Below, in pieces: positions 2,502 through 11,971 of a stretch of 13,156 nt of DNA. The translations under genes were made by a program, and so were the position numbers. The notes beneath the pieces were generated by a model that searched no databases, was not told the origin of the DNA, and worked only from the letters and a program-made list of their open reading frames with translations. Each line of letters starts with the position of its first letter. Position 1 is the first letter of the stretch. The DNA lies in assembly GCA_018065025.1 (NCBI GenBank), contig JAGHUB010000014.1, forward strand, positions 1 to 13,156, given 5' to 3'. This DNA is from Candidatus Equihabitans merdae (GTDB taxonomy: Bacteria > Bacillota > Clostridia > Lachnospirales > Lachnospiraceae).

Positions 2502-2533
2502 TCGCATCGACGATATCGTCGGTGCGATTTTTT
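2502..2533 (+). terminator. Riboswitch-controlled intrinsic terminator
   Basis: TCGCATCGACG (2502-2512) pairs with CGTCGGTGCGA (2517-2527) over 11 bp with one G-T wobble and an ATAT loop, followed by six T (2528-2533). Its position, after the cobalamin aptamer and before ecfT, makes it the expression platform. An upstream ATGCG (2487-2491) can pair with CGCAT (2503-2507) inside the 5' arm, which gives a short possible antiterminator. Confidence 0.9.
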
Positions 2534-2671: not shown

Positions 2672-3550
2672 ATGGACCGTGTGGATACATTTTCCACTTA
2701 CAATCCCATATTAAATTTTGCTTACTTCATCGGGGCCATCGGTTTGGGCATGATCTTTATGCATCCCCTCTTTCTGGTGGTGAATCTGGTGGGGGCATTT
2801 GCTTATGCCCTGACACAGGATCCCAAGAAAGTAAAGAAGCTGATGCCTCTTGTAGTCATCATGTTTACCCTGATCACCTTGATCAATCCTTTGCTTAATA
2901 CAAACGGCAAGACAGTGCTTTTCACCTGGCTCCATGGTCGTCCATACACACTGGAGTCCATGTGCTGGGGCATGGTCACCGGCAGCATGTTTGCCGCCAT
3001 TATCATCTGGTTCGCGGCCTACAATCACGTCATGACCAGTGATAAATTCGTTTATCTCTTTGGCAAAGTCGTACCATCCATTTCTCTGGTACTGACCATG
3101 ATTCTTCGTTTGATTCCAAACTTTCAGAAGAAGGCCAATCAGATCATGGCAGCAAGGGCCAGCATTGGCATGACTGAGAAAAATATGGAAAATGTTTCGG
3201 CAGTATTTTCTGCATTGACAGGCTGGGCTCTGGAAGGCGGCATCGTTACAGCCGACAGCATGCGAGCCCGGGGCTATGGCAGCGGCAATCGTACAACATT
3301 TTCTATTTACAGATTTGATAAAAGAGATGTAGCCATGTTGGTGGCTATGTTCGTATTAATAAGTGGATGTGTGGTGTGCGCCTTGATGGGCGGTGCGGAA
3401 GTAACCTTCGTGCCGGACATTCAGACAGCACCCATCACCAATATGGCAACAGCGTTAGGTATCATCTGTTACGGATTATTCCTGTTGATACCTATCGTTC
3501 TAAATACAGTGGAGGCATTAAGATGGCACATTTTGAGATCAAGGATCTGA
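2672..3550 (+). CDS. ecfT: ECF transporter transmembrane component EcfT (first copy)
   Basis: This is a 292-residue integral membrane protein of the EcfT/CbiQ family, the scaffold that couples the ATPases to the substrate-binding S-component. Hydrophobic segments lie at about 13-48, 58-76, 98-118, 219-240 and 258-280. The cytoplasmic coupling helices carry both expected Arg motifs: ARA at 161-163 (in MAARASIG) and ARG at 199-201 (in MRARGYG). The conserved SIYRFDKRD stretch follows at 211-219. The ribosome binding site AGGAAGG (2651-2657) is 14 nt from the ATG, rather far, but no better start is visible. The gene is first behind the cobalamin riboswitch and overlaps the ATPase gene by 28 nt. 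It should act in the membrane with the fused EcfA and an S-component. Confidence 0.92.
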   Translation: MDRVDTFSTYNPILNFAYFIGAIGLGMIFMHPLFLVVNLVGAFAYALTQDPKKVKKLMPLVVIMFTLITLINPLLNTNGKTVLFTWLHGRPYTLESMCWGMVTGSMFAAIIIWFAAYNHVMTSDKFVYLFGKVVPSISLVLTMILRLIPNFQKKANQIMAARASIGMTEKNMENVSAVFSALTGWALEGGIVTADSMRARGYGSGNRTTFSIYRFDKRDVAMLVAMFVLISGCVVCALMGGAEVTFVPDIQTAPITNMATALGIICYGLFLLIPIVLNTVEALRWHILRSRI

Positions 3551-5184
3551 CATTTTCATATCCCACAGCTAAGGATCATCTTGCCCTGGATCACATCAAT
3601 CTGAGCATCGAGAAGGGACAGTACATCACCGTTTGCGGCAAGAGCGGCTGCGGTAAGACAACATTACTTAAGCATCTGAAGAGTGTACTGGCACCACACG
3701 GCAAGACTTCCGGTGAGATTTATTTCGAAGGCAAGCTTCTTAAAGATGTCAGCCTGAGAGAACAGTCTTCCAAGATCGGTTACGTTATGCAGAATCCTGA
3801 CAACCAGGTGGTTACCGACAAGGTTTGGCATGAGCTGGCCTTTGGTCTGGAAAGCCTGGGTATGGATCAGAAGACCATCCGCCTCCGTGTGGCTGAGATG
3901 GCCAGTTATTTCGGCATCCAGTCCTGGTTCCATAAAAATGTCTCAGACCTGTCCGGAGGTCAGAAGCAGCTGCTGAATCTGGCTTCTATCATGGCCATGC
4001 AGCCCACTGTGCTGATTCTGGATGAGCCCACATCTCAGCTGGATCCCATCGCAGCAGCGGACTTCCTTAATACCGTTCGTAAGATCAACCTGGAATTGGG
4101 TACCACCATTATCATCACCGAACATCGTCTGGAAGATGTTTTCCACGCTTCCGATCGCGTGGTGGTAATTGAAGACGGCCGCCTCATTGCTGATGACACA
4201 CCCAAGGCCGTTGGACGTTTCCTCAAGGAAACTAAGTCCGAGATGTTCACAGCTATGCCCTCACCGGTTCAGATTTATTACGGTGTAGACAGTGATCTGG
4301 ATTGCCCCCTTACCGTTCGTGAAGGCCGCTCATGGCTTAGCCAAGAATTCGAAGGTATCACACCTACAGTAACTTCCATCCAGGAAGAGCCCTACATGGA
4401 TGAAGAGATCAAGGATCCTGCTGTAGAAGTTAAGGAAGCCTGGTTCAGATATGAGAAAAACCTGCCCGATGTACTGAAAGGCGTCTCTTTCAAGGTTCCC
4501 CGTCAGTCCATCTTCGCCATCGTAGGCGGTAATGGTAACGGCAAGTCCACAACACTGAAGTCCATCAGCAATATCTGCAAGCCCTATCGTGGTCAGGTTC
4601 TGATCAATGGCAAGCGAGTAGATAAGTATAAAACCTCAGAATTATTCAAGGGAAATGTAGCCATGCTGCCTCAGGATCCTCAGAGCCTCTTCGTTAAGAA
4701 GACGGTGAAAGAGGAGCTGGAGGAAATGAAGGCTACTCCCGAAGAAGTGGAAAATGTTGCCAAGACCTGTGACATTACCCACCTGCTTAAGAGCCATCCC
4801 TATGATCTGTCCGGTGGTGAACAGCAGAGAGCAGCCCTGGCCAAGATCCTGCTGACCAATCCCAAGATCCTCTTGCTGGATGAGCCTACCAAGGGTATTG
4901 ATAACTTCTTCAAGTTACAGTTCGCTCAGATTCTACTTAAGCTGAAAGAGCAGGGCGTCACCGTTATCATGGTTACCCACGACGTAGAATTCTGCGCACG
5001 TTATGCAGATACTGTCAGCATGTTCCTTGATGGCAGCATCATTACCACCAATACACCAAACCGTTTCTTCTCAAGAAACAGCTTCTCTACCACAGCGGCT
5101 AACCGCATGAGCCTCCATCTGTTTGAAAATGCTATTACCAATGAGGATGTGATTGAATTATGCAGACAGAATCTAAACAAGTAA
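3523..5184 (+). CDS. ecfA: Fused ECF ATPase (EcfA1-EcfA2 in one chain)
   Basis: The product is 553 residues with two complete ABC ATPase domains, so one chain supplies both ATP sites that usually come from separate EcfA1 and EcfA2. Domain 1: Walker A GKSGCGKT (39-46), Q-loop Q90, signature LSGGQ (143-147), Walker B LILDEP (164-169), switch H201. Domain 2: Walker A GGNGNGKST (335-343), Q-loop Q384, signature LSGGEQQR (429-436), Walker B LLLDEP (450-455), switch H486. An acidic linker of about 245-300 joins them. All catalytic motifs look intact. The ATG at 3523 was chosen because GGAGG (3511-3515) lies 7 nt upstream and the family N-terminus starts there; the frame is open to 3367, but that part matches no ABC protein. 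It overlaps ecfT upstream and the S-component gene downstream, which suggests translational coupling. Confidence 0.94.
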   Translation: MAHFEIKDLTFSYPTAKDHLALDHINLSIEKGQYITVCGKSGCGKTTLLKHLKSVLAPHGKTSGEIYFEGKLLKDVSLREQSSKIGYVMQNPDNQVVTDKVWHELAFGLESLGMDQKTIRLRVAEMASYFGIQSWFHKNVSDLSGGQKQLLNLASIMAMQPTVLILDEPTSQLDPIAAADFLNTVRKINLELGTTIIITEHRLEDVFHASDRVVVIEDGRLIADDTPKAVGRFLKETKSEMFTAMPSPVQIYYGVDSDLDCPLTVREGRSWLSQEFEGITPTVTSIQEEPYMDEEIKDPAVEVKEAWFRYEKNLPDVLKGVSFKVPRQSIFAIVGGNGNGKSTTLKSISNICKPYRGQVLINGKRVDKYKTSELFKGNVAMLPQDPQSLFVKKTVKEELEEMKATPEEVENVAKTCDITHLLKSHPYDLSGGEQQRAALAKILLTNPKILLLDEPTKGIDNFFKLQFAQILLKLKEQGVTVIMVTHDVEFCARYADTVSMFLDGSIITTNTPNRFFSRNSFSTTAANRMSLHLFENAITNEDVIELCRQNLNK

Positions 5185-5885
5185 CAAAGAAAACCTGGCT
5201 TGGTATCATCATCGCCATCGTCTTAATGGCAGCTACAGTAGCCATTTCCTACAAAATGGGTGATACCAAGTATTACGTAGCATCAGTCCTGTGCATTTTC
5301 TATGCCATGATCCCCTTCGTCATGGGCTTCGAAAACAGAAAGCCCATGCCCAGAGAAATGGTTACCATCGCTGTACTGACAGCTCTGGCCGTCATTTCCC
5401 GTGTTATCTTTATCGCCATTCCCTTCTGCAAACCGGTTATCGGCGTCATCTTTATCGCCGGTATGGGTATGGGAGCCGGCAGCGGTTTCATGGTTGGTGC
5501 CTTGACTGCTATCGTCAGTGACATTATCTGTGGTCAGGGTCCCTGGACTCCCTGGCAGATGCTGGCCTTTGGTCTGGCCGGTTTCATCGGCGGCGTCCTC
5601 TGCCGCAAGGGTCTCATCAAGGGCGACAAGCCCCTTGTTCCCGCCATCATCAGTGGTCTTCTTTGTATCATCGTGGTAGGTCCCATTCTGGATACCTCTA
5701 CCTTGCTGGTTATGAGCAATATGGTTGACACCACCTCCGCCGGTGCTGTCTATCTGTCCGGTCTGCCGGTAAATGCCGTGCTGGGTGCCGCTACATTTGT
5801 CACCGTATTAGTTTTAGCTAAACCCATGCTGGAGAAGCTGGACCGTGTCAAGGTCAAGTACGGTATGATGGAGGAAGAGGAATGA
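5160..5885 (+). CDS. ECF S-component, predicted cobalamin/corrinoid-specific
   Basis: The product is a 241-residue, very hydrophobic protein with about six to seven membrane helices (about 13-31, 39-57, 66-88, 92-120, 131-148, 158-178 and 200-221). This size and topology match ECF substrate-binding components of the ECF_trnsprt type. The conserved loop GQGPWTPWQM (125-134) is typical of several S-component subfamilies, as far as I recall. It overlaps the ATPase gene by 25 nt and the next gene by 4 nt (ATGA). Substrate assignment rests on context: B12 riboswitch control and neighbouring transcobalamin-like proteins make a CbrT- or CblT-like role in cobalamin or corrinoid-precursor uptake most likely. 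Sequence alone cannot separate cobalamin, cobinamide and dimethylbenzimidazole. No cobalt transporter CbiM/CbiN is present here. Confidence 0.85.
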   Translation: MQTESKQVTKKTWLGIIIAIVLMAATVAISYKMGDTKYYVASVLCIFYAMIPFVMGFENRKPMPREMVTIAVLTALAVISRVIFIAIPFCKPVIGVIFIAGMGMGAGSGFMVGALTAIVSDIICGQGPWTPWQMLAFGLAGFIGGVLCRKGLIKGDKPLVPAIISGLLCIIVVGPILDTSTLLVMSNMVDTTSAGAVYLSGLPVNAVLGAATFVTVLVLAKPMLEKLDRVKVKYGMMEEEE

Positions 5886-6640
5886 AGCGGAGTCAGATTT
5901 ATATCTCCTCCATTGCATCGGACGTAAGAGAAAGCGCTAAACGTTCCGGATTCGGTATCGAGATTGCCCATTATTGTGACAGCACTCGTCTGGACGAAGC
6001 TTTGCCGGGACTTAAGGCCGAGGCAGAAGCGGATGCGGTGGGTATTGAAAGACGTACCCTCCATGCCCCATTTATCGAGCTTTTTCCATGTGCCATTGAT
6101 CCCTTGATCCGTCAGGTATCCTGGCAGCGCTACAAGCAGGCAGTGGATCTGGCCCTTGAGCACAAGGCTCACACTGTGATCATCCACGCCGGTCATAACC
6201 CAAAGATTCATTACCCGATTTGGTTCACAGAGCAGTCCGTTCCCTTTTGGAAAGACTTCGCCCGGGAGGTACCGGATGGCATGACTATCTGTCTGGAAAA
6301 TGTTCTGGAGACGGAGCCCTCTTACATGGCGGATATTATTGAAGGGGTAAATGATCCAAAGATTCAGATGTGCCTGGATGTAGGTCATGTCAATGCCTAC
6401 AGTCCTTACACAAATGATGAATGGCTGGAGAGATGTGCTCCTATTATTAAGCACTTCCACATCCACAATAATGATGCTGTTTTGGACAGCCATCAGATGT
6501 TGGCAGAGGGCATTATTCCCATGAAGGAATTGCTTCTGAAAGCTCAGGATATGTGCCCACAGGCTGAATACACCATGGAAGTGCTGGAAGCAGCCTCTTC
6601 AGTTGACTGGATGTTTGAACAGGGTTTGATTCAGGAATAA
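5882..6640 (+). CDS. TIM-barrel protein, xylose isomerase/AP-endonuclease-2 fold
   Basis: The product is a 252-residue soluble protein of the AP endonuclease 2/sugar phosphate isomerase-epimerase superfamily (Pfam AP_endonuc_2). Residues at the usual metal-site positions can be seen: HAPF (H61), IHAGH (H102), CLEN (E139), LDVGH (D166, H169), HFHIHNN (H191-N197), DSH (H204) and MEV (E233). Metal binding and catalysis therefore look intact, probably Mn, Zn or similar. The start is supported by GGAGGAAGAGG immediately upstream and an ATGA overlap with the S-component stop. Its place between an S-component and a second EcfT suggests a job on the imported compound, for example on a corrinoid or nucleotide-loop sugar, but this is inference. 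The superfamily also holds sugar isomerases and DNA repair enzymes; I cannot name the substrate. Confidence 0.85.
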   Translation: MKRSQIYISSIASDVRESAKRSGFGIEIAHYCDSTRLDEALPGLKAEAEADAVGIERRTLHAPFIELFPCAIDPLIRQVSWQRYKQAVDLALEHKAHTVIIHAGHNPKIHYPIWFTEQSVPFWKDFAREVPDGMTICLENVLETEPSYMADIIEGVNDPKIQMCLDVGHVNAYSPYTNDEWLERCAPIIKHFHIHNNDAVLDSHQMLAEGIIPMKELLLKAQDMCPQAEYTMEVLEAASSVDWMFEQGLIQE

Positions 6641-6695
6641 TCAGAAGTGACGCAGTCCCTGATCATAGATTGGGGCATGCGATAAAGAAGAAACT

Positions 6696-7583
6696 ATGAG
6701 ATTCGACAGTTATCATCCCACCATAAACTTAATATATTTCACGGCAACTATCGCATTTGCCCTGTGGTTTAACCATCCCGTATTCGTGCTGATCGGGTAC
6801 TTAAGTGCATTTGCCTATTCCATAAAGCTAAATGGCCTCAAGGCCCTAATCTTTGATCTGTGCCTGATCCCACTTGGAGCAGCATACGCCCTCTGGTATG
6901 CCTACTACAATCATTTCGGAATCACGCCGGTGCATCAGAACATCATCGGCAACCAGATCACAGTGGAAGCCCTGGTTTACGGCAGTGTGAGAGCTATTAC
7001 AGTGATCACCGCTATCATGTTTGTGACATGCCTTTTCAAGGTCTTTACCACAGATAAAGTAGTATACCTTTTTGGCAAGATCTCACCTAAGTTATCACTG
7101 TTCCTGTCCATTATTTTAAGGATAGGCCCCCGTATAAAGGTGGAAGGGCGCCGCATCAATGTGGCTCAGATGGGCATCGGACGAGGCATCGGCCAGGGAA
7201 ATATTTTCCAGAGAATATGGCACAGCCTGCGAGAGCTTTCCATCCTGATCACATGGACATTGGAGAGTTTTCTGGAAAGCACCAGATCCATGCAGAGTCG
7301 AGGCTATTCACTTAAAGGCCGCACAGCCTTCTCCATCTATCGCTTCGACAATCGTGACCGCAGTTTCGTCATCGCTATATTCGCCTGCCTGGTATGGATA
7401 TTTGCCGGTGTGGCCTTGAATCAGACCGCCATCAGCTATGATCCCCAGATTCTGATGAACCGCATCACACCTGTTTCATTTGTCTTTTATCTGGCATATG
7501 CCATTCTTTTATTACTTCCGATGATCCTTCAGATCATGGGAGAGAAAAAATTTGAACGCCTTCAGAGGAGTTGTCCGGTATGA
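6696..7583 (+). CDS. ecfT: Second EcfT paralogue with an altered coupling motif
   Basis: This is a 295-residue EcfT/CbiQ-family membrane protein. It is clearly paralogous to the first copy: both start with a short polar region and Y-x-P-x-x-N, both have DKxVYLFGK, and both have SIYRFDxRD after the second coupling helix. The second coupling motif is kept (SRG at 201-203 in QSRGYS). The first is changed: where copy 1 has AARASIG, this has VAQMGIG (156-162), so the coupling Arg is Gln158. The region between the motifs is longer and more basic. A weak AAGAAG ribosome binding site precedes the ATG, and 55 nt separate it from the TIM-barrel gene. The stop overlaps the next start (ATGA). It may pair with another S-component elsewhere, or serve a specialised or accessory role. 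Confidence 0.88.
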   Translation: MRFDSYHPTINLIYFTATIAFALWFNHPVFVLIGYLSAFAYSIKLNGLKALIFDLCLIPLGAAYALWYAYYNHFGITPVHQNIIGNQITVEALVYGSVRAITVITAIMFVTCLFKVFTTDKVVYLFGKISPKLSLFLSIILRIGPRIKVEGRRINVAQMGIGRGIGQGNIFQRIWHSLRELSILITWTLESFLESTRSMQSRGYSLKGRTAFSIYRFDNRDRSFVIAIFACLVWIFAGVALNQTAISYDPQILMNRITPVSFVFYLAYAILLLLPMILQIMGEKKFERLQRSCPV

Positions 7584-8821
7584 AAAAACAGAAGATTTTA
7601 AATATCGTTATGGTTGTCCTGATCGCCATCATCGTAGTAAGCGGTGTATTGGCAGTTGGTGCTTTAAAGGGCTGGTTTACCAAGTCTGAAGATGCTATCG
7701 CTACCATCGATCAGGTATCAGGTATTGTTAATGTAGAACGCGGCGGCGTAGGTTATCGTGCCGAAGAAGGGGCAGCCCTTCTGCCTAAGGATATCCTGGA
7801 GACCCTGCCCAAAGCTTCTGCTACATTTGATGGCACCACCATGGATGAGCAGAGTGAAGTTCAGTTTGGCGAAGACGGTATTGTTACATTAAATCGTGGC
7901 ACTATTTTCACCAGACTTGATGCACTGAATCTCATGGACGGTAAGGTTACCGCCACAGATGCCGTCTATGTAGCCGATATGCGTGACGGTTCCGGTTCTA
8001 TCCTGGTACTGGCAGGGACTGTGATCTATGAAAAAGATGGCGAGACTTACACAGCCAAGGCCGGTGAACAGATCAGCATCCTGGAAAATGACATCAGTGT
8101 AACCAAGCTGGATGCTACAGCTCTCAATGAATTCGCTATCACCCAGGCTAAGAATGCCAAAGAGACCCTGTGCTTCACAGCTGACGACCTGGACAAGGTT
8201 CTGGCCGATCGTGAAGCTGAACGTCAGGCTGCTTTGGAAACATCCGAAACCATCCATATCGGTGATGAAGCAAATGCCGATTCCACAGAGGCAGATGCTG
8301 ACAGCACCGGCAAGGATAAAGACAAGAATTCAAGTGCAGCTGAAGCTGAGGAAGAAGACGACGATGACAAGGGTGGTTCAGGCGGTTCTTCTTCCGGCGA
8401 AACAAGCGGCCCTGTTAACACATGTACTATTCAGATTCGTTGCGACACTATCCTCAACAACCTGGAGAATCTGGAACCCTCCAAGGCCGGTTATGTCCCG
8501 GGCAATGGCGTGATCCTGACTCCCTGCACCGTTGAGTTTGAAGAAGGCGAGACCGTATTCGATGTTCTCTGCCGTGTCTGCAACTATTTCGGTATCCAGA
8601 TCGAATACTCCTGGACACCTATCTACAACAGTTACTACATCGAAGGTATCAACAACCTGTATGAATTCGACTGCGGTAACCAGTCCGGTTGGATGTACAA
8701 AGTCAATGGTTGGTTCCCCAACTACGGCTGCAGTTCCTACACACTGAAAAATGGTGACAACATCGTCTGGTGCTACACCTGCAATGGTCTTGGTGCTGAC
8801 GTTGGCGCTTCTATGGGTTAA
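7580..8821 (+). CDS. Membrane-anchored FecR-like plus DUF4430 (transcobalamin beta domain) protein
   Basis: The product is 413 residues. A short basic N-terminus and one membrane helix (about 9-29) anchor it with the rest outside. Residues about 42-195 resemble a FecR-type beta domain (SGIVNVERGG, then A-x-x-G-x-x-L-x-x-x-D-I-x-x-T/L-x-x-A). An acidic, Ser/Gly-rich linker runs from about 220 to 278. Residues about 280-413 form a DUF4430/transcobalamin-like C-terminal domain, with the hallmark SGWMYKVNGWFPNYG (369-383), LKNGDNIVW (389-397) and a closing GADVG. Nine Cys lie in this domain (282, 288, 316, 331, 334, 365, 384, 398, 401). The ATG at 7580 was preferred over a TTG at 7571 because GAGGAG (7565-7570) is 9 nt upstream and it forms an ATGA overlap with ecfT. 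Role inferred: extracellular corrinoid binding beside the importer. Confidence 0.85.
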   Translation: MKKQKILNIVMVVLIAIIVVSGVLAVGALKGWFTKSEDAIATIDQVSGIVNVERGGVGYRAEEGAALLPKDILETLPKASATFDGTTMDEQSEVQFGEDGIVTLNRGTIFTRLDALNLMDGKVTATDAVYVADMRDGSGSILVLAGTVIYEKDGETYTAKAGEQISILENDISVTKLDATALNEFAITQAKNAKETLCFTADDLDKVLADREAERQAALETSETIHIGDEANADSTEADADSTGKDKDKNSSAAEAEEEDDDDKGGSGGSSSGETSGPVNTCTIQIRCDTILNNLENLEPSKAGYVPGNGVILTPCTVEFEEGETVFDVLCRVCNYFGIQIEYSWTPIYNSYYIEGINNLYEFDCGNQSGWMYKVNGWFPNYGCSSYTLKNGDNIVWCYTCNGLGADVGASMG

Positions 8822-8905
8822 TGATTTCCATATCGACCTTGAGATGATGAATTAAAAAATGTTTATAAAAGTCAGAAAATGACTGACTGATTTGGAGATG
8901 CATTT

Positions 8906-11653
8906 ATGAAGAAAAGATGGTTGGCTCTGGTACTGGCCGGTCTTATGACCATAAGTATCATTCCTGTCAATGCTATGGCAGACGAGGGCACATCAGAAGC
9001 GACGATGCCTGTTCAAACAGAAGAAAGTACAGAGCTTCCGGCAGAGAGTCTGCCGGAGCTTGCTGCGGAAGAACCGGTTGAAGAAGTTGTGCCGGAAGTT
9101 CCTGCAGATCAGGCTGTCAGTGAAACAGAAGAGGGCGAGAGTTCACAGGGAGATAAGGATCAAGGCTCTACAGATGCCGCTTCAAGTGGCACATCAAGTA
9201 CCACCGGCAATAATCCCACTGCAGCAGCTCCGCCTACAGAGAATATCGTAGACGGCACTGCCACACATGATTATGTGTCCGACATGGCCTTCTTCGACGA
9301 TGAGGCTGATCTTACCAGTAAAGTGACTGCCTTTGATTTCCGTAAGGAGATTGCTCGATACGATCTTAGATTGGATCTGACAGACAAGACCACATGGCGA
9401 CTTACCCCTGCTTCGCAGGATCTCTACTATGAAGTTCTGTTGGGGGACAAGGTGATCACCACCATCCGTCCTGTTGCATCCGAACTTGGCTGGATCGAAG
9501 TGCTGAGCAAGGAACTGAGAGAGGCTCTTTCCGACAAGCTTGTCAATGTCATCACCATTCGCATTGGTCACCTTGCCGAAAATGGTACAGGCTTTGCTGA
9601 TGGTGACAGTTATATCATCAACCTGTCTCTGACAGATCAGGCACAGTCTGAAGCAAAGGTAAATGAAGCAGTTGCCGGATCATCCGAGGCAGAATCTGAT
9701 TCAGAGGCTGCTGTTGATCAGAGTGCAAGCCCTGTTGAAGAAGAACTGAATGCCATCTCTGAATCTGCCTTGAATCAGATCTATCAGGAAAGCGGCAGTG
9801 CATTGTCCAATGCAGCTAAGTCCAGCACTCCCATCGTAGGCAGTATTGGTGGTGAATGGATGATGCTTGGCCTTCAAAGAGGCGGTCAGGATATCGATCC
9901 GGCTACCCTTCAGGGCTATCTCGATAATGTTATCAAAACCGTAGTGGATGCCGGAGGTGTTCTTCATAAGAAGAAATATACCGAGTATTCCCGTGTCGTT
10001 CTGGCTCTCACAGCCCTGGGACAGGATGTCACCGATGTTGGTGGTTACAACCTGCTGGAGCCTCTGGCCGATTACGACAAGACCATCTGGCAGGGCATCA
10101 ATGGTGCCATCTTCGCTTTGATTGCTTTTGACTCACACAATTATGTGATTCCTACAGCACCTGCCGGGGTTAAACAGACCACCCGCAGCAACCTGATCCA
10201 GTGTATCCTGGATCGTCAGCTTGCTGATGGCGGATGGACCCTGTCAGGCAATGCATCTGACGTAGATATGACAGCCATGGCTATGCAGTCCCTGGCACCT
10301 TATTACAACAAGGATGCAGCCGTTAAAGAAGCTGTAGATAAGGGCCTGGTTCGTCTGTCAAACCTCCAGCAAAGTGATGGCGGTTTCGGTAGTTACGGCA
10401 CTATCAATTCTGAGAGCTGCTCTCGGGTTATCGTGGCCTTAACAGCTCTTGGTATTGATCCCTATACGGACAGCCGTTTTATTAAAAATGGCAATTCGCT
10501 CTTTGATGCTTTGGCAAGATTTGCTGTGGCAGGCGGTGGCTTCAAGCATGTCGTTGACGGCTCAAAAGACGGCATGGCTTCAGAGCAGGCTCATTATGCA
10601 CTGGCAGCTTATTACCGCTTTAAAGAAGGTAAGACATCTCTCTACGATATGAGTGATGTAAAAATCGACAATAAGCACGTCAACCCCGATGATCCTGATG
10701 ATCCCTCACATGTGGATCCGGTGGATCCCACTAAACCTGACAATCCTTCAGGTGGCGGCGAAGACAAGCCTGTGGTCAAACCTGTACCTGGCGGCAGCAC
10801 CATCGGCGGCGGTACCTTAAGTCTTGGCGGCAAGGGCGGTACCATCGGTAAAAATGATGGCAAGGACGACAAGAAGGGTGACAAGAAAGACGATAAGAAG
10901 GGTCTTTACGACGATGACGATGATGACGAAGTAGTTCTGGATGATCAGGGTCATGTCATCGAATCTGAATCCGGCAAAGTTATTCAGCGCATCAAGAACC
11001 TGGTTCTTCCCAAAGACCCCGATGCCTATACCGAACAGGATGCTATAGCCATCACCAAGATCTTTAAGAAGTATGCAGCCCTGTCCTTTGAAGACAAGCA
11101 TACAGTAGAAGCCGATAAGGTTTACGGCGAATTTGAGAAGATGCTGGACAATGTAGGCGCCTTCAACCACAAGGACGGCGATGCTCTGGCTGAAGGTCAG
11201 GATCTTCCCTGGTATCTTAAGCTGGGCTATATGCCCGGTATCATTGATGAAGACAACGAAGCTCTGGTAAAGGGTGTGCTTGGTCAGGATGGCATCGTCT
11301 TGAATGCTCAGGACATTTATTTTGTAAATACCCTGACCGGAGAAGAACAGGAACCGGGTTGCGCCATCAGCATTCGTCTCAAAGGTGTCAATGCCGGTGA
11401 TTACGATGATGTAGTGCTGATCCATGTCCGTGATAACGGCAAGATCGAGTTGATTCCCTGTAGGGTAGAAGAGGACGGTGTAGTTTTCGAATCTGCTGAG
11501 TTCTCTATGTTCTATACTGCAGCGGTCAGCTCTCAGATGCAGACCATACTTGCAAGCAGCAACAACTTCGCCTGGATCCTCTTTGTGATCATGGGCCTGG
11601 CTGCGGCAGGTGCTTTAGTAGTCATCGTCCTTATGAGAAAACAGAGGAGATAA
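8906..11653 (+). CDS. Surface protein with a transcobalamin/prenyltransferase-type alpha barrel and C-terminal membrane anchor
   Basis: The product is 915 residues. A signal peptide (1-26, AMA before DEG) is followed by an acidic Ser/Thr/Glu-rich stretch to about 110 and an unrecognised beta-rich domain (about 115-245). Next comes an alpha/alpha barrel (about 285-580) with squalene-cyclase/prenyltransferase-type repeats: RQLADGGWTL (437-446), DVDMTAMAMQSL (452-463), LQQSDGGFGSYG (487-498), ALTALGIDP (511-519) and VAGGGFKHV (541-549). The DxTAMA helix followed by Q-x-x-DG-x-FG and ALTALG is also the pattern of the transcobalamin/intrinsic-factor barrel. A Pro/Asp, Gly and Lys/Asp linker with an Asp run (about 592-680) leads to a helical and beta domain (about 690-875), then a membrane helix (about 887-910) and RKQRR tail. 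No LPxTG motif is seen. GGAG lies 8 nt before the ATG. The gene is 84 nt downstream of the FecR/DUF4430 gene with no clear terminator between. Confidence 0.85.
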   Translation: MKKRWLALVLAGLMTISIIPVNAMADEGTSEATMPVQTEESTELPAESLPELAAEEPVEEVVPEVPADQAVSETEEGESSQGDKDQGSTDAASSGTSSTTGNNPTAAAPPTENIVDGTATHDYVSDMAFFDDEADLTSKVTAFDFRKEIARYDLRLDLTDKTTWRLTPASQDLYYEVLLGDKVITTIRPVASELGWIEVLSKELREALSDKLVNVITIRIGHLAENGTGFADGDSYIINLSLTDQAQSEAKVNEAVAGSSEAESDSEAAVDQSASPVEEELNAISESALNQIYQESGSALSNAAKSSTPIVGSIGGEWMMLGLQRGGQDIDPATLQGYLDNVIKTVVDAGGVLHKKKYTEYSRVVLALTALGQDVTDVGGYNLLEPLADYDKTIWQGINGAIFALIAFDSHNYVIPTAPAGVKQTTRSNLIQCILDRQLADGGWTLSGNASDVDMTAMAMQSLAPYYNKDAAVKEAVDKGLVRLSNLQQSDGGFGSYGTINSESCSRVIVALTALGIDPYTDSRFIKNGNSLFDALARFAVAGGGFKHVVDGSKDGMASEQAHYALAAYYRFKEGKTSLYDMSDVKIDNKHVNPDDPDDPSHVDPVDPTKPDNPSGGGEDKPVVKPVPGGSTIGGGTLSLGGKGGTIGKNDGKDDKKGDKKDDKKGLYDDDDDDEVVLDDQGHVIESESGKVIQRIKNLVLPKDPDAYTEQDAIAITKIFKKYAALSFEDKHTVEADKVYGEFEKMLDNVGAFNHKDGDALAEGQDLPWYLKLGYMPGIIDEDNEALVKGVLGQDGIVLNAQDIYFVNTLTGEEQEPGCAISIRLKGVNAGDYDDVVLIHVRDNGKIELIPCRVEEDGVVFESAEFSMFYTAAVSSQMQTILASSNNFAWILFVIMGLAAAGALVVIVLMRKQRR

Positions 11654-11660
11654 ATATTAT
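11631..11660 (+). promoter_or_regulatory. Weak promoter candidate for riboswitch 2
   Basis: TTATGA (11631-11636) and TATTAT (11655-11660) are 18 bp apart and overlap the end of the preceding gene. The match is poor. Because no terminator follows the 915-residue gene, readthrough from the operon could also feed riboswitch 2. Confidence 0.25.
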
Positions 11661-11679
11661 CTGCTTTAACTGAATATGA

Positions 11680-11897
11680 CTATGGTGTCCCGCATGCTGA
11701 TATTTGGGCCAGATGCAGGGATTAGGGAACCCGGTGAGAGTCCGGGACGTTAGCGGCGCTGTATGTACAGGAGTCGACATTTATGGAGTGATCCGGTCAT
11801 TGGGAGAAAGAAATCTTTGGATTTCGGTTGATCCTGAGAAGGCGGAATGTCGGCGCAAGAGCAATCTATACTGTATAAGTCAGAATACCGACCATAG
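11680..11897 (+). promoter_or_regulatory. Cobalamin riboswitch 2 (RF00174-type)
   Basis: The outer helix CTATGGT (11680-11686) pairs perfectly with ACCATAG (11891-11897). The core contains GGGAACCCGGTGAGAG (from 11725), TCCGGGACG, GGCGCTGTATG, TGGAGTGATCCGGTCATTG (11784-11802), TGAGAAGGCGGAATG (11835-11849) and the B12-box region TATAAGTCAGAATACC. The 19-nt TGGAGTGATCCGGTCATTG segment is identical to riboswitch 1 (2337-2355), which suggests a duplication. It controls the secreted DUF4430 gene at 12030, so that gene belongs to the same cobalamin regulon. Confidence 0.93.
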
Positions 11898-11971
11898 GTG
11901 CTTTCACACCAATGCCCAAGTGGCCATCTTTGGGAAATGCTGTTCCACCAGATGGTCTGAATACTGCTTAG

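Follow-up and report, generated by a model that had tools for sequence, protein, structure and literature searches.

The 13,156-base window analysed here, the whole of one contig (JAGHUB010000014.1) among the 447 that make up the 1.86-Mb draft genome of the Lachnospiraceae bacterium Candidatus Equihabitans merdae, encodes two adjacent membrane-anchored proteins in an operon with an energy-coupling factor (ECF) importer. The first, D, ends in a DUF4430 domain and the second, T, contains an alpha/alpha-toroid. With moderate confidence, T and D are taken to form a two-chain, tethered corrinoid binder of the transcobalamin type, which hands its ligand to a CbrT-like importer and is repressed by B12. 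The basis for this reading, all of it computed, is the domain content of the two proteins, their predicted anchors, the operon and its riboswitch, the co-occurrence and adjacency of the two halves in related genomes, and natural single chains that join a toroid to a DUF4430 domain through two membrane segments. A corrinoid would be the ligand, as the riboswitch, the S component of the importer and a CbiR-like gene suggest.

In the proposed mechanism, T would supply the alpha-like (toroid) half and D the beta-like (DUF4430 beta-grasp) half of a transcobalamin-type binder. With both proteins anchored next to each other on the outside of the cytoplasmic membrane, they may hold the corrinoid between them in a ligand-dependent sandwich and pass it to the neighbouring CbrT-like S component, and B12 would repress the operon through a riboswitch working as an OFF switch. 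Such a two-chain clamp is physically reasonable, since the alpha and beta parts of human transcobalamin, expressed separately, are reported to co-elute only with cyanocobalamin (PMC5599065), and isolated domains are reported to be able to bind cobalamin (PMC11107200).

Two proteins with predicted anchors in an operon behind a cobalamin riboswitch

D is encoded at 7580..8821 (413 residues from an ATG; an alternative TTG start at 7571 would give 416), on the + strand like every gene named in the window. A basic start, MKKQK, precedes a hydrophobic segment at residues 9-27, and the middle of the protein consists of a FecR-like region followed by a charged linker. PF04773 (FecR) is precomputed in many relatives of D, and was not detected in the window's own protein by a Pfam scan. 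The C-terminal DUF4430 domain, a beta-grasp fold resembling the C-terminal domain of transcobalamin, covers 8420..8818 (PF14478, E 4.2e-20). PF14478 falls at residues 323-400 with E 3.4e-19, in agreement with the initial annotation, which had placed the beta-domain type in this protein.

T (8906..11653, 915 residues) has a signal-peptide-like start, then an acidic linker and an N-terminal domain ahead of the toroid; the toroid is followed by a linker rich in Asp, a domain close to the membrane and an anchor at the C-terminus. The toroid occupies residues 283-596 (9752..10693), as delimited with an iterated toroid hidden Markov model (HMM), and the anchor, predicted from hydropathy, residues 891-909 (11576..11632), followed by MRKQRR. 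The domain before the toroid (residues 111-280, at 9236-9745) has no relative in the 80 related loci described below at E 1e-5, and DUF4430 was absent from T in a family search of the whole genome. The barrel motifs ascribed to T at the outset can be read in its translation (DMTAMA, QQSDGGFG and, twice, ALTALG), and the hydrophobic segments do lie at opposite ends of the two proteins, as first described. By the usual rules, anchors so predicted would leave both ectodomains facing outward. Among the near relatives of the toroid (P0002-P0088), many belong to large surface proteins in which a DUF4430 domain sits between two toroids, often accompanied by SLH domains.

The operon runs in the order riboswitch, hairpin, EcfT-like gene 1, double ECF ATPase, S component, CbiR-like gene, EcfT-like gene 2, D and T, with overlapping or closely spaced genes. 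At its head, upstream of the ECF genes, lies a cobalamin riboswitch aptamer (RF00174, 2213..2450, + strand) scoring 52.6 bits against a gathering threshold of 31.5, so that the description of an operon with an ECF transporter behind a cobalamin riboswitch holds. Just 3' of it, at 2502..2527 on the same strand, is a hairpin of 11 pairs, 7 of them GC, followed by a run of T as in an intrinsic terminator; it is probably the OFF-switch platform of the riboswitch. Terminator-like hairpins are not enriched over the region as a whole (11, against a mean of 8.8 and a standard deviation of 3.1 in shuffles).

Recurrence of the split and of its joined form

A scan of GTDB contigs, with aligned relatives of D as the query, yielded 544 stretches encoding a relative, of which the best 80 were used; the DUF4430 and toroid HMMs were iterated on these loci and on protein matches. 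The split seen in the window recurs beyond it. A toroid open reading frame (ORF) lacking DUF4430 is present in 25 of the 80 loci (one, in L014, is cut at its 3' end), and 24 of these 25 lie on the same strand as a DUF4430 ORF and within 500 bases of it, in either order, L047 being the exception. ECF genes accompany 65 of the 80 loci, an S component 54 and a CbiR-like gene 10. At least one cobalamin riboswitch was found in 19 of the 33 loci scanned among the 80, and in 4 of 10 further loci. It is not always at the operon head, being on the other strand in L021, L022 and L077, downstream in L026 and L088, and several kilobases upstream in L028 and L089. The opposite-strand riboswitch of L021 has beside it a Clostridiales-1 RNA (9563-9721, 96.3 bits), directly upstream of the D-T-ECF operon.

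Another count comes from 100 genomes of the same family, searched for T and D at E 1e-10. T is matched in 18 and D in 21, with 17 having both (Fisher p 1.5e-14). These 17 comprise seven with a toroid-only ORF and a D, seven with a DUF4430-bearing toroid ORF and a separate D, and three in which toroid and DUF4430 form one chain; with the last three set aside, D is matched in 14 of the 15 remaining genomes with T (p 1.6e-12). The window genome belongs to the first group, as does G387, which has further toroids elsewhere. In G333 the separate D is on a different contig from the DUF4430-bearing toroid ORF, and G345, the only genome in which T passes the threshold and D does not, has a DUF4430 ORF that is found by the HMM (L145).

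The three one-chain relatives (L130, L131 and L132, with 592, 603 and 689 residues) share one layout, in which the toroid comes first, a linker leads to two membrane segments separated by a basic loop, and DUF4430 comes last. This is the layout of T, with its anchor last, joined to D, with its anchor first, and it keeps both ectodomains outside. That the two halves are partners, as initially proposed, draws its best new evidence from these three natural chains, which join them with each anchor retained. L130 and L132 adjoin ECF genes in the order EcfT-like 1, ATPase, S component, and the L130 cluster begins with a cobalamin riboswitch; the contig of L131 is too short to tell. The anchors are general features of the separate proteins also. 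A C-terminal membrane segment is found in 26 of 32 toroid-only ORFs that are complete at the 3' end, none of which has an LPxTG motif, and a membrane segment precedes DUF4430 in 95 of 98 D proteins (complete, at most 650 residues, DUF4430 at the extreme C-terminus; some are near-copies, e.g. those of L078 and L137).

Weak support for the proposal comes from a tree of 83 toroids, of which 75 bear a label. Built by a quick method and with several long branches, it has the label "DUF4430 in the same ORF" changing at least 14 times. Shuffling gave 25 changes, with none of 500 shuffles reaching so low a number, and the well-supported branches of the tree force six changes. Fusion or fission of T with D was considered as the meaning of these changes and rejected: all 19 loci of the 80 with a DUF4430-bearing toroid ORF keep a separate D, so the tree records the gain and loss of an extra DUF4430.

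D without a toroid

Results of several kinds weigh against reading T and D as a joint binder: the distribution of the toroid, the profile comparisons with proteins of known structure and the corrinoid genes of the host. As to the first, 36 of the 80 D loci show no toroid. The genomes of 25 of these loci, 24 in number, were searched for one at E 1e-10, and 16 have no match while 8 have a toroid elsewhere; many loci are cut by contig ends, so counts of absent toroids are upper bounds. In the 19 loci mentioned above D adjoins a toroid ORF that already holds its own DUF4430 (one of the two domains is weak in L018, L028 and L046), and the one-chain proteins of L130 and L132 are each adjoined by a further DUF4430 protein. 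Since D often occurs without a toroid, it is the constant partner and T the optional one, and D is probably able to work alone. The two-protein clamp as an obligatory arrangement everywhere was rejected as a general rule on these same loci and genomes.

D may therefore act as a receptor by itself, and T may raise affinity or relay ligand. As a rival to the clamp, this amounts to a relay: the importer would have D as its only corrinoid receptor, while T and further surface proteins would be accessories that bind corrinoids separately and pass them on to D. The constancy of D fits such a relay, and so does its persistence beside toroids that carry DUF4430 themselves. Organisms with the beta-domain alone are also mentioned in the literature (PMC11107200). 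Median identity to relatives is far higher in the DUF4430 part of D (73%, 80 loci) than in the FecR-like part (31%, 71 loci), a difference biased by the choice of loci through DUF4430 motifs; with that bias, it shows a DUF4430 sequence apparently under strong constraint. A relay by itself leaves unexplained why natural chains join T to D through two membrane segments, why toroid-only ORFs so regularly adjoin D (24 of 25), and why D is matched in 17 of the 18 genomes with T. As a replacement for the two-chain binder it is doubtful.

Relation to transcobalamins and terpene cyclases

Animal transcobalamins contain a PF01122 toroid, and a search of the window genome for this family gave no match at E<=10. 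Dereplication of 45 toroids left 39, and a profile built from these matches mainly squalene-hopene-type cyclases in the PDB (best E 2.1e-10), with weak matches to alpha-2-macroglobulin-type and other chains, and no transcobalamin. Among the 39 toroids themselves, PF01122 is matched by 1 (E 0.0088), PF00432 by 31 and PF13243 by 29 (the last two at E up to 0.01). The window toroid stays below the cut-off of PF13243 (21.1 bits against 26.1), likewise below that of PF00432, and some relatives pass one or the other (for PF13243, L131 with 27.4 and L140 with 27.9). A DUF4430 profile of 48 domains, chosen from 83 dereplicated ones, also matched no transcobalamin chain in the PDB, nor did the window's D and T proteins directly. 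Assignment of T to PF01122 was accordingly rejected, on the Pfam, genome and related-toroid searches.

A connection exists through clostridial intermediates. PF01122 was matched in 6 of 291 genomes of the class, above the cut-off in 4, and seven clostridial toroid loci selected by such a match were combined in a profile. Against the PDB this profile finds haptocorrin (4kki, E 1.4e-4), intrinsic factor (E 0.0081) and transcobalamin (E 0.44), together with two unrelated chains (E 0.5-0.7), and no terpene cyclase up to E 1. In two of the loci, L094 and L098, toroid and then DUF4430 follow in one chain, the animal order; in L097 and L099 a neighbouring ORF has a DUF4430-type HMM match, and a Pfam scan at E 0.001 of the cut neighbour in L097 was empty. 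When a profile of window-type toroids was aligned with the clostridial one by hhalign, 246 columns were matched with a probability of 99.6% (E 2.6e-24), while a toroid profile against a DUF4430 profile, as a negative control, gave 1.3%. The toroid HMM scores 31-75 bits on the seven clostridial proteins and a sister profile up to 43.4 bits on terpene cyclases, so the ranges overlap. The link from T to transcobalamin is a transitive homology within the toroid superfamily, by way of clostridial intermediates, and not proof of special kinship. For the other half, vertebrate TCN proteins are said to carry a C-terminal DUF4430 (PMC4350170), and a search with a fish transcobalamin is reported to have recovered bacterial members (Burroughs et al., PMC1796856).

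The barrel, initially likened to the eukaryotic cobalamin-binding family, therefore does not match that family directly and is linked to it only through the intermediates. The broader description, of a transcobalamin- or intrinsic-factor-like pair, stands as regards the separate anchored halves and their recurrence, and is weakened by the missing direct barrel match and by the many D proteins found without a toroid.

The same searches bear on a second alternative, in which T is a surface toroid of the terpene cyclase superfamily without a corrinoid role (binding cell wall, glycan or a partner, for instance) that is merely co-regulated with the importer. Its direct matches, below the cut-off in the window and above it in some relatives, are indeed to PF13243 and PF00432 and, in the PDB, to squalene-hopene cyclases. 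DxDD is the acid motif of squalene-hopene-type cyclases. The window toroid reads DVDM at this position, so that it shares Asp with the motif, but the second Asp of the motif is replaced by Met. T is also predicted to be extracellular and anchored, its profile links it to clostridial toroids that match haptocorrin and intrinsic factor, and it is tied to DUF4430 and to a B12-regulated operon. A toroid without a corrinoid role is, on this evidence, quite unlikely.

The importer and the corrinoid genes of the host

EcfT-like membrane protein 1 (2672..3550) is similar to EcfT-like membrane protein 2 (121 bits) and gave no match in Pfam and NCBIfam scans. It is followed by a fused double ECF ATPase (3517..5184), which matches TIGR04520 in two stretches with 362 bits (cut-off 315), and by the S component (5160..5885), above the cut-offs of PF07155/PF12822. 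Residues 66-235 of the S component match PDB 6fnp chain A (E 1.5e-8), presumably CbrT of the solved ECF-CbrT B12 importer. Identity as FolT was rejected for it, the NCBIfam score for the FolT family being below the cut-off. The next gene (5882..6640) encodes a TIM barrel of the AP-endonuclease-2 type (PF01261, E 2.9e-19); it is called CbiR-like only, because its score against the curated CbiR family NF041277, 49.4 bits, is below the cut-off of 105. A role in cobamide remodelling is possible. EcfT-like protein 2 (6696..7583) has weak matches to the solved EcfT chains 5d3m, 4huq and 4hzu (E 0.003-0.006, the best 0.0034). Two different EcfT-like genes thus flank one double ATPase and one S component, and all four are found together in many of the 80 related loci.

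A real system for cobinamide, another corrinoid precursor or cobalt, and not for complete cobamides, is very improbable: assigning S components from their sequence is difficult (NCBIfam offers FolT-family only, below cut-off) and ECF-CbrT also transports cobinamide according to a section heading of PMC5997447, but the cobalamin riboswitch, the CbrT match and the CbiR-like gene, CbiR being reported to hydrolyse complete cobamides (PMC7733943), point to cobamides.

In a check confined to part of the biosynthetic pathway, the window genome was found to have CbiC (E 3.5e-76) and CbiD (E 1.4e-96) on another contig (C324). The host may therefore make corrinoids itself as well as import them, and scavenging is not obviously essential to it, which counts against the proposal. 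B12 auxotrophy as the reason for the system was rejected for this genome on the same genes. On their contig CbiD and CbiC adjoin a CobS fragment and an aminotransferase that on visual inspection resembles CobD; a further contig (C178) holds a second match of the CbiC type.

Other DUF4430 proteins of the genome

Directly 3' of the T gene is a second cobalamin riboswitch (11666..11910, + strand; 52.8 bits, gathering threshold 31.5), followed by a second DUF4430 protein that is cut by the contig end (12030..13156; PF14478 E 7.5e-9, PF12733, Cadherin-like, E 4.9e-7) and has a hydrophobic, signal-peptide-like start. Two proteins that resemble it at the N-terminus, in L017 and L027, carry a toroid further on. 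The initial annotation had left out this riboswitch and this protein, as well as the CbiR-like gene and the two EcfT-like genes.

The search of the whole genome for DUF4430 gave three matches: D, the protein at the contig end, and a cell-wall protein on another contig (C4). The last belongs to a pair of cell-wall proteins of ∼1350 residues with CWB2 repeats (3573-11788 of that contig), only one of which has DUF4430; the pair sits downstream of another cobalamin riboswitch, at 2882-3147.

Comparison with known systems

Animal transcobalamin, intrinsic factor and haptocorrin combine, like the window, a toroid with a DUF4430-type domain outside the cell. They are, however, single soluble chains with the toroid first, whereas the window has two membrane-anchored chains with the D gene before the T gene. 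Their toroid is PF01122, which the window toroid does not match, and they are taken up by endocytosis, in contrast to a coupling with an ECF importer. Their one-chain, toroid-first order is seen in L130-L132, L094 and L098 but not in the window.

Among bacteria, combinations of a toroid with a transcobalamin-C-like domain beside CbiO/CbiQ genes were proposed as B12 scavengers in 2007: Burroughs et al. (PMC1796856) reported toroid-SLBB fusions as well as SLBB operons containing genes of the CbiO/CbiQ type, predicted a role in B12 scavenging, described a transfer to animals, and raised the possibility of complexes between two extracellular SLBB proteins. Those systems have in common with the window the DUF4430/SLBB clade, a toroid partner, the surface location and the type of operon. 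They are described as having the toroid fused to SLBB, or two SLBB proteins per operon, in contrast to the separate chains and DUF4430-free T of the window, and their hosts as usually without key enzymes of B12 biosynthesis, whereas cbi genes are present in the window host. The ECF-CbrT importer from Lactobacillus delbrueckii (PMC5997447) shares the CbrT-like S component, ECF ATPases and an EcfT-like protein; the window adds a dedicated operon, a second EcfT-like protein and tethered extracellular proteins, a kind of partner that the abstract of that paper does not mention. BtuG of Bacteroides (PMC6143338) would be an analogue in that it captures B12 at the surface and feeds an importer, but it is a lipoprotein, is said to occur only in Bacteroidetes, and works with the outer-membrane protein BtuB.

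What appears to be new, as far as could be seen, is that toroid and DUF4430 are repeatedly divided between two chains with anchors at opposite ends. The single chains that join them through two membrane segments, the association with a CbrT-like S component, and clostridial toroids that bridge to the animal proteins appear new as well. No paper on the split pair was recognised among those listed by the searches made, which covered openly licensed PMC papers and, for PMC1796856, the text.

Implications

Proteolysis is reported to be required before transcobalamin, intrinsic factor and haptocorrin let go of B12 (PMC11107200). A tentative extension of the two-chain model, held with distinctly less confidence than the model itself and going beyond the data, is a reversible transcobalamin, in which the corrinoid glues the tethered halves together and these part again. 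Because the halves could part, the ligand might be delivered to the S component with the carrier intact, and the release step would then be solved differently from that of the animal carriers. The natural chains in which T is joined to D make both the partner relation and the handover directly testable.

If T and D do form a corrinoid binder, the animal B12 carriers would gain bacterial cousins, both split and one-chain, and the clostridial toroid-DUF4430 chains, with a toroid profile that finds intrinsic factor and haptocorrin, are relevant to the proposal that those carriers came from bacteria. Gram-positive gut bacteria would have in the pair a surface receptor dedicated to B12 and analogous to BtuG of Bacteroides.

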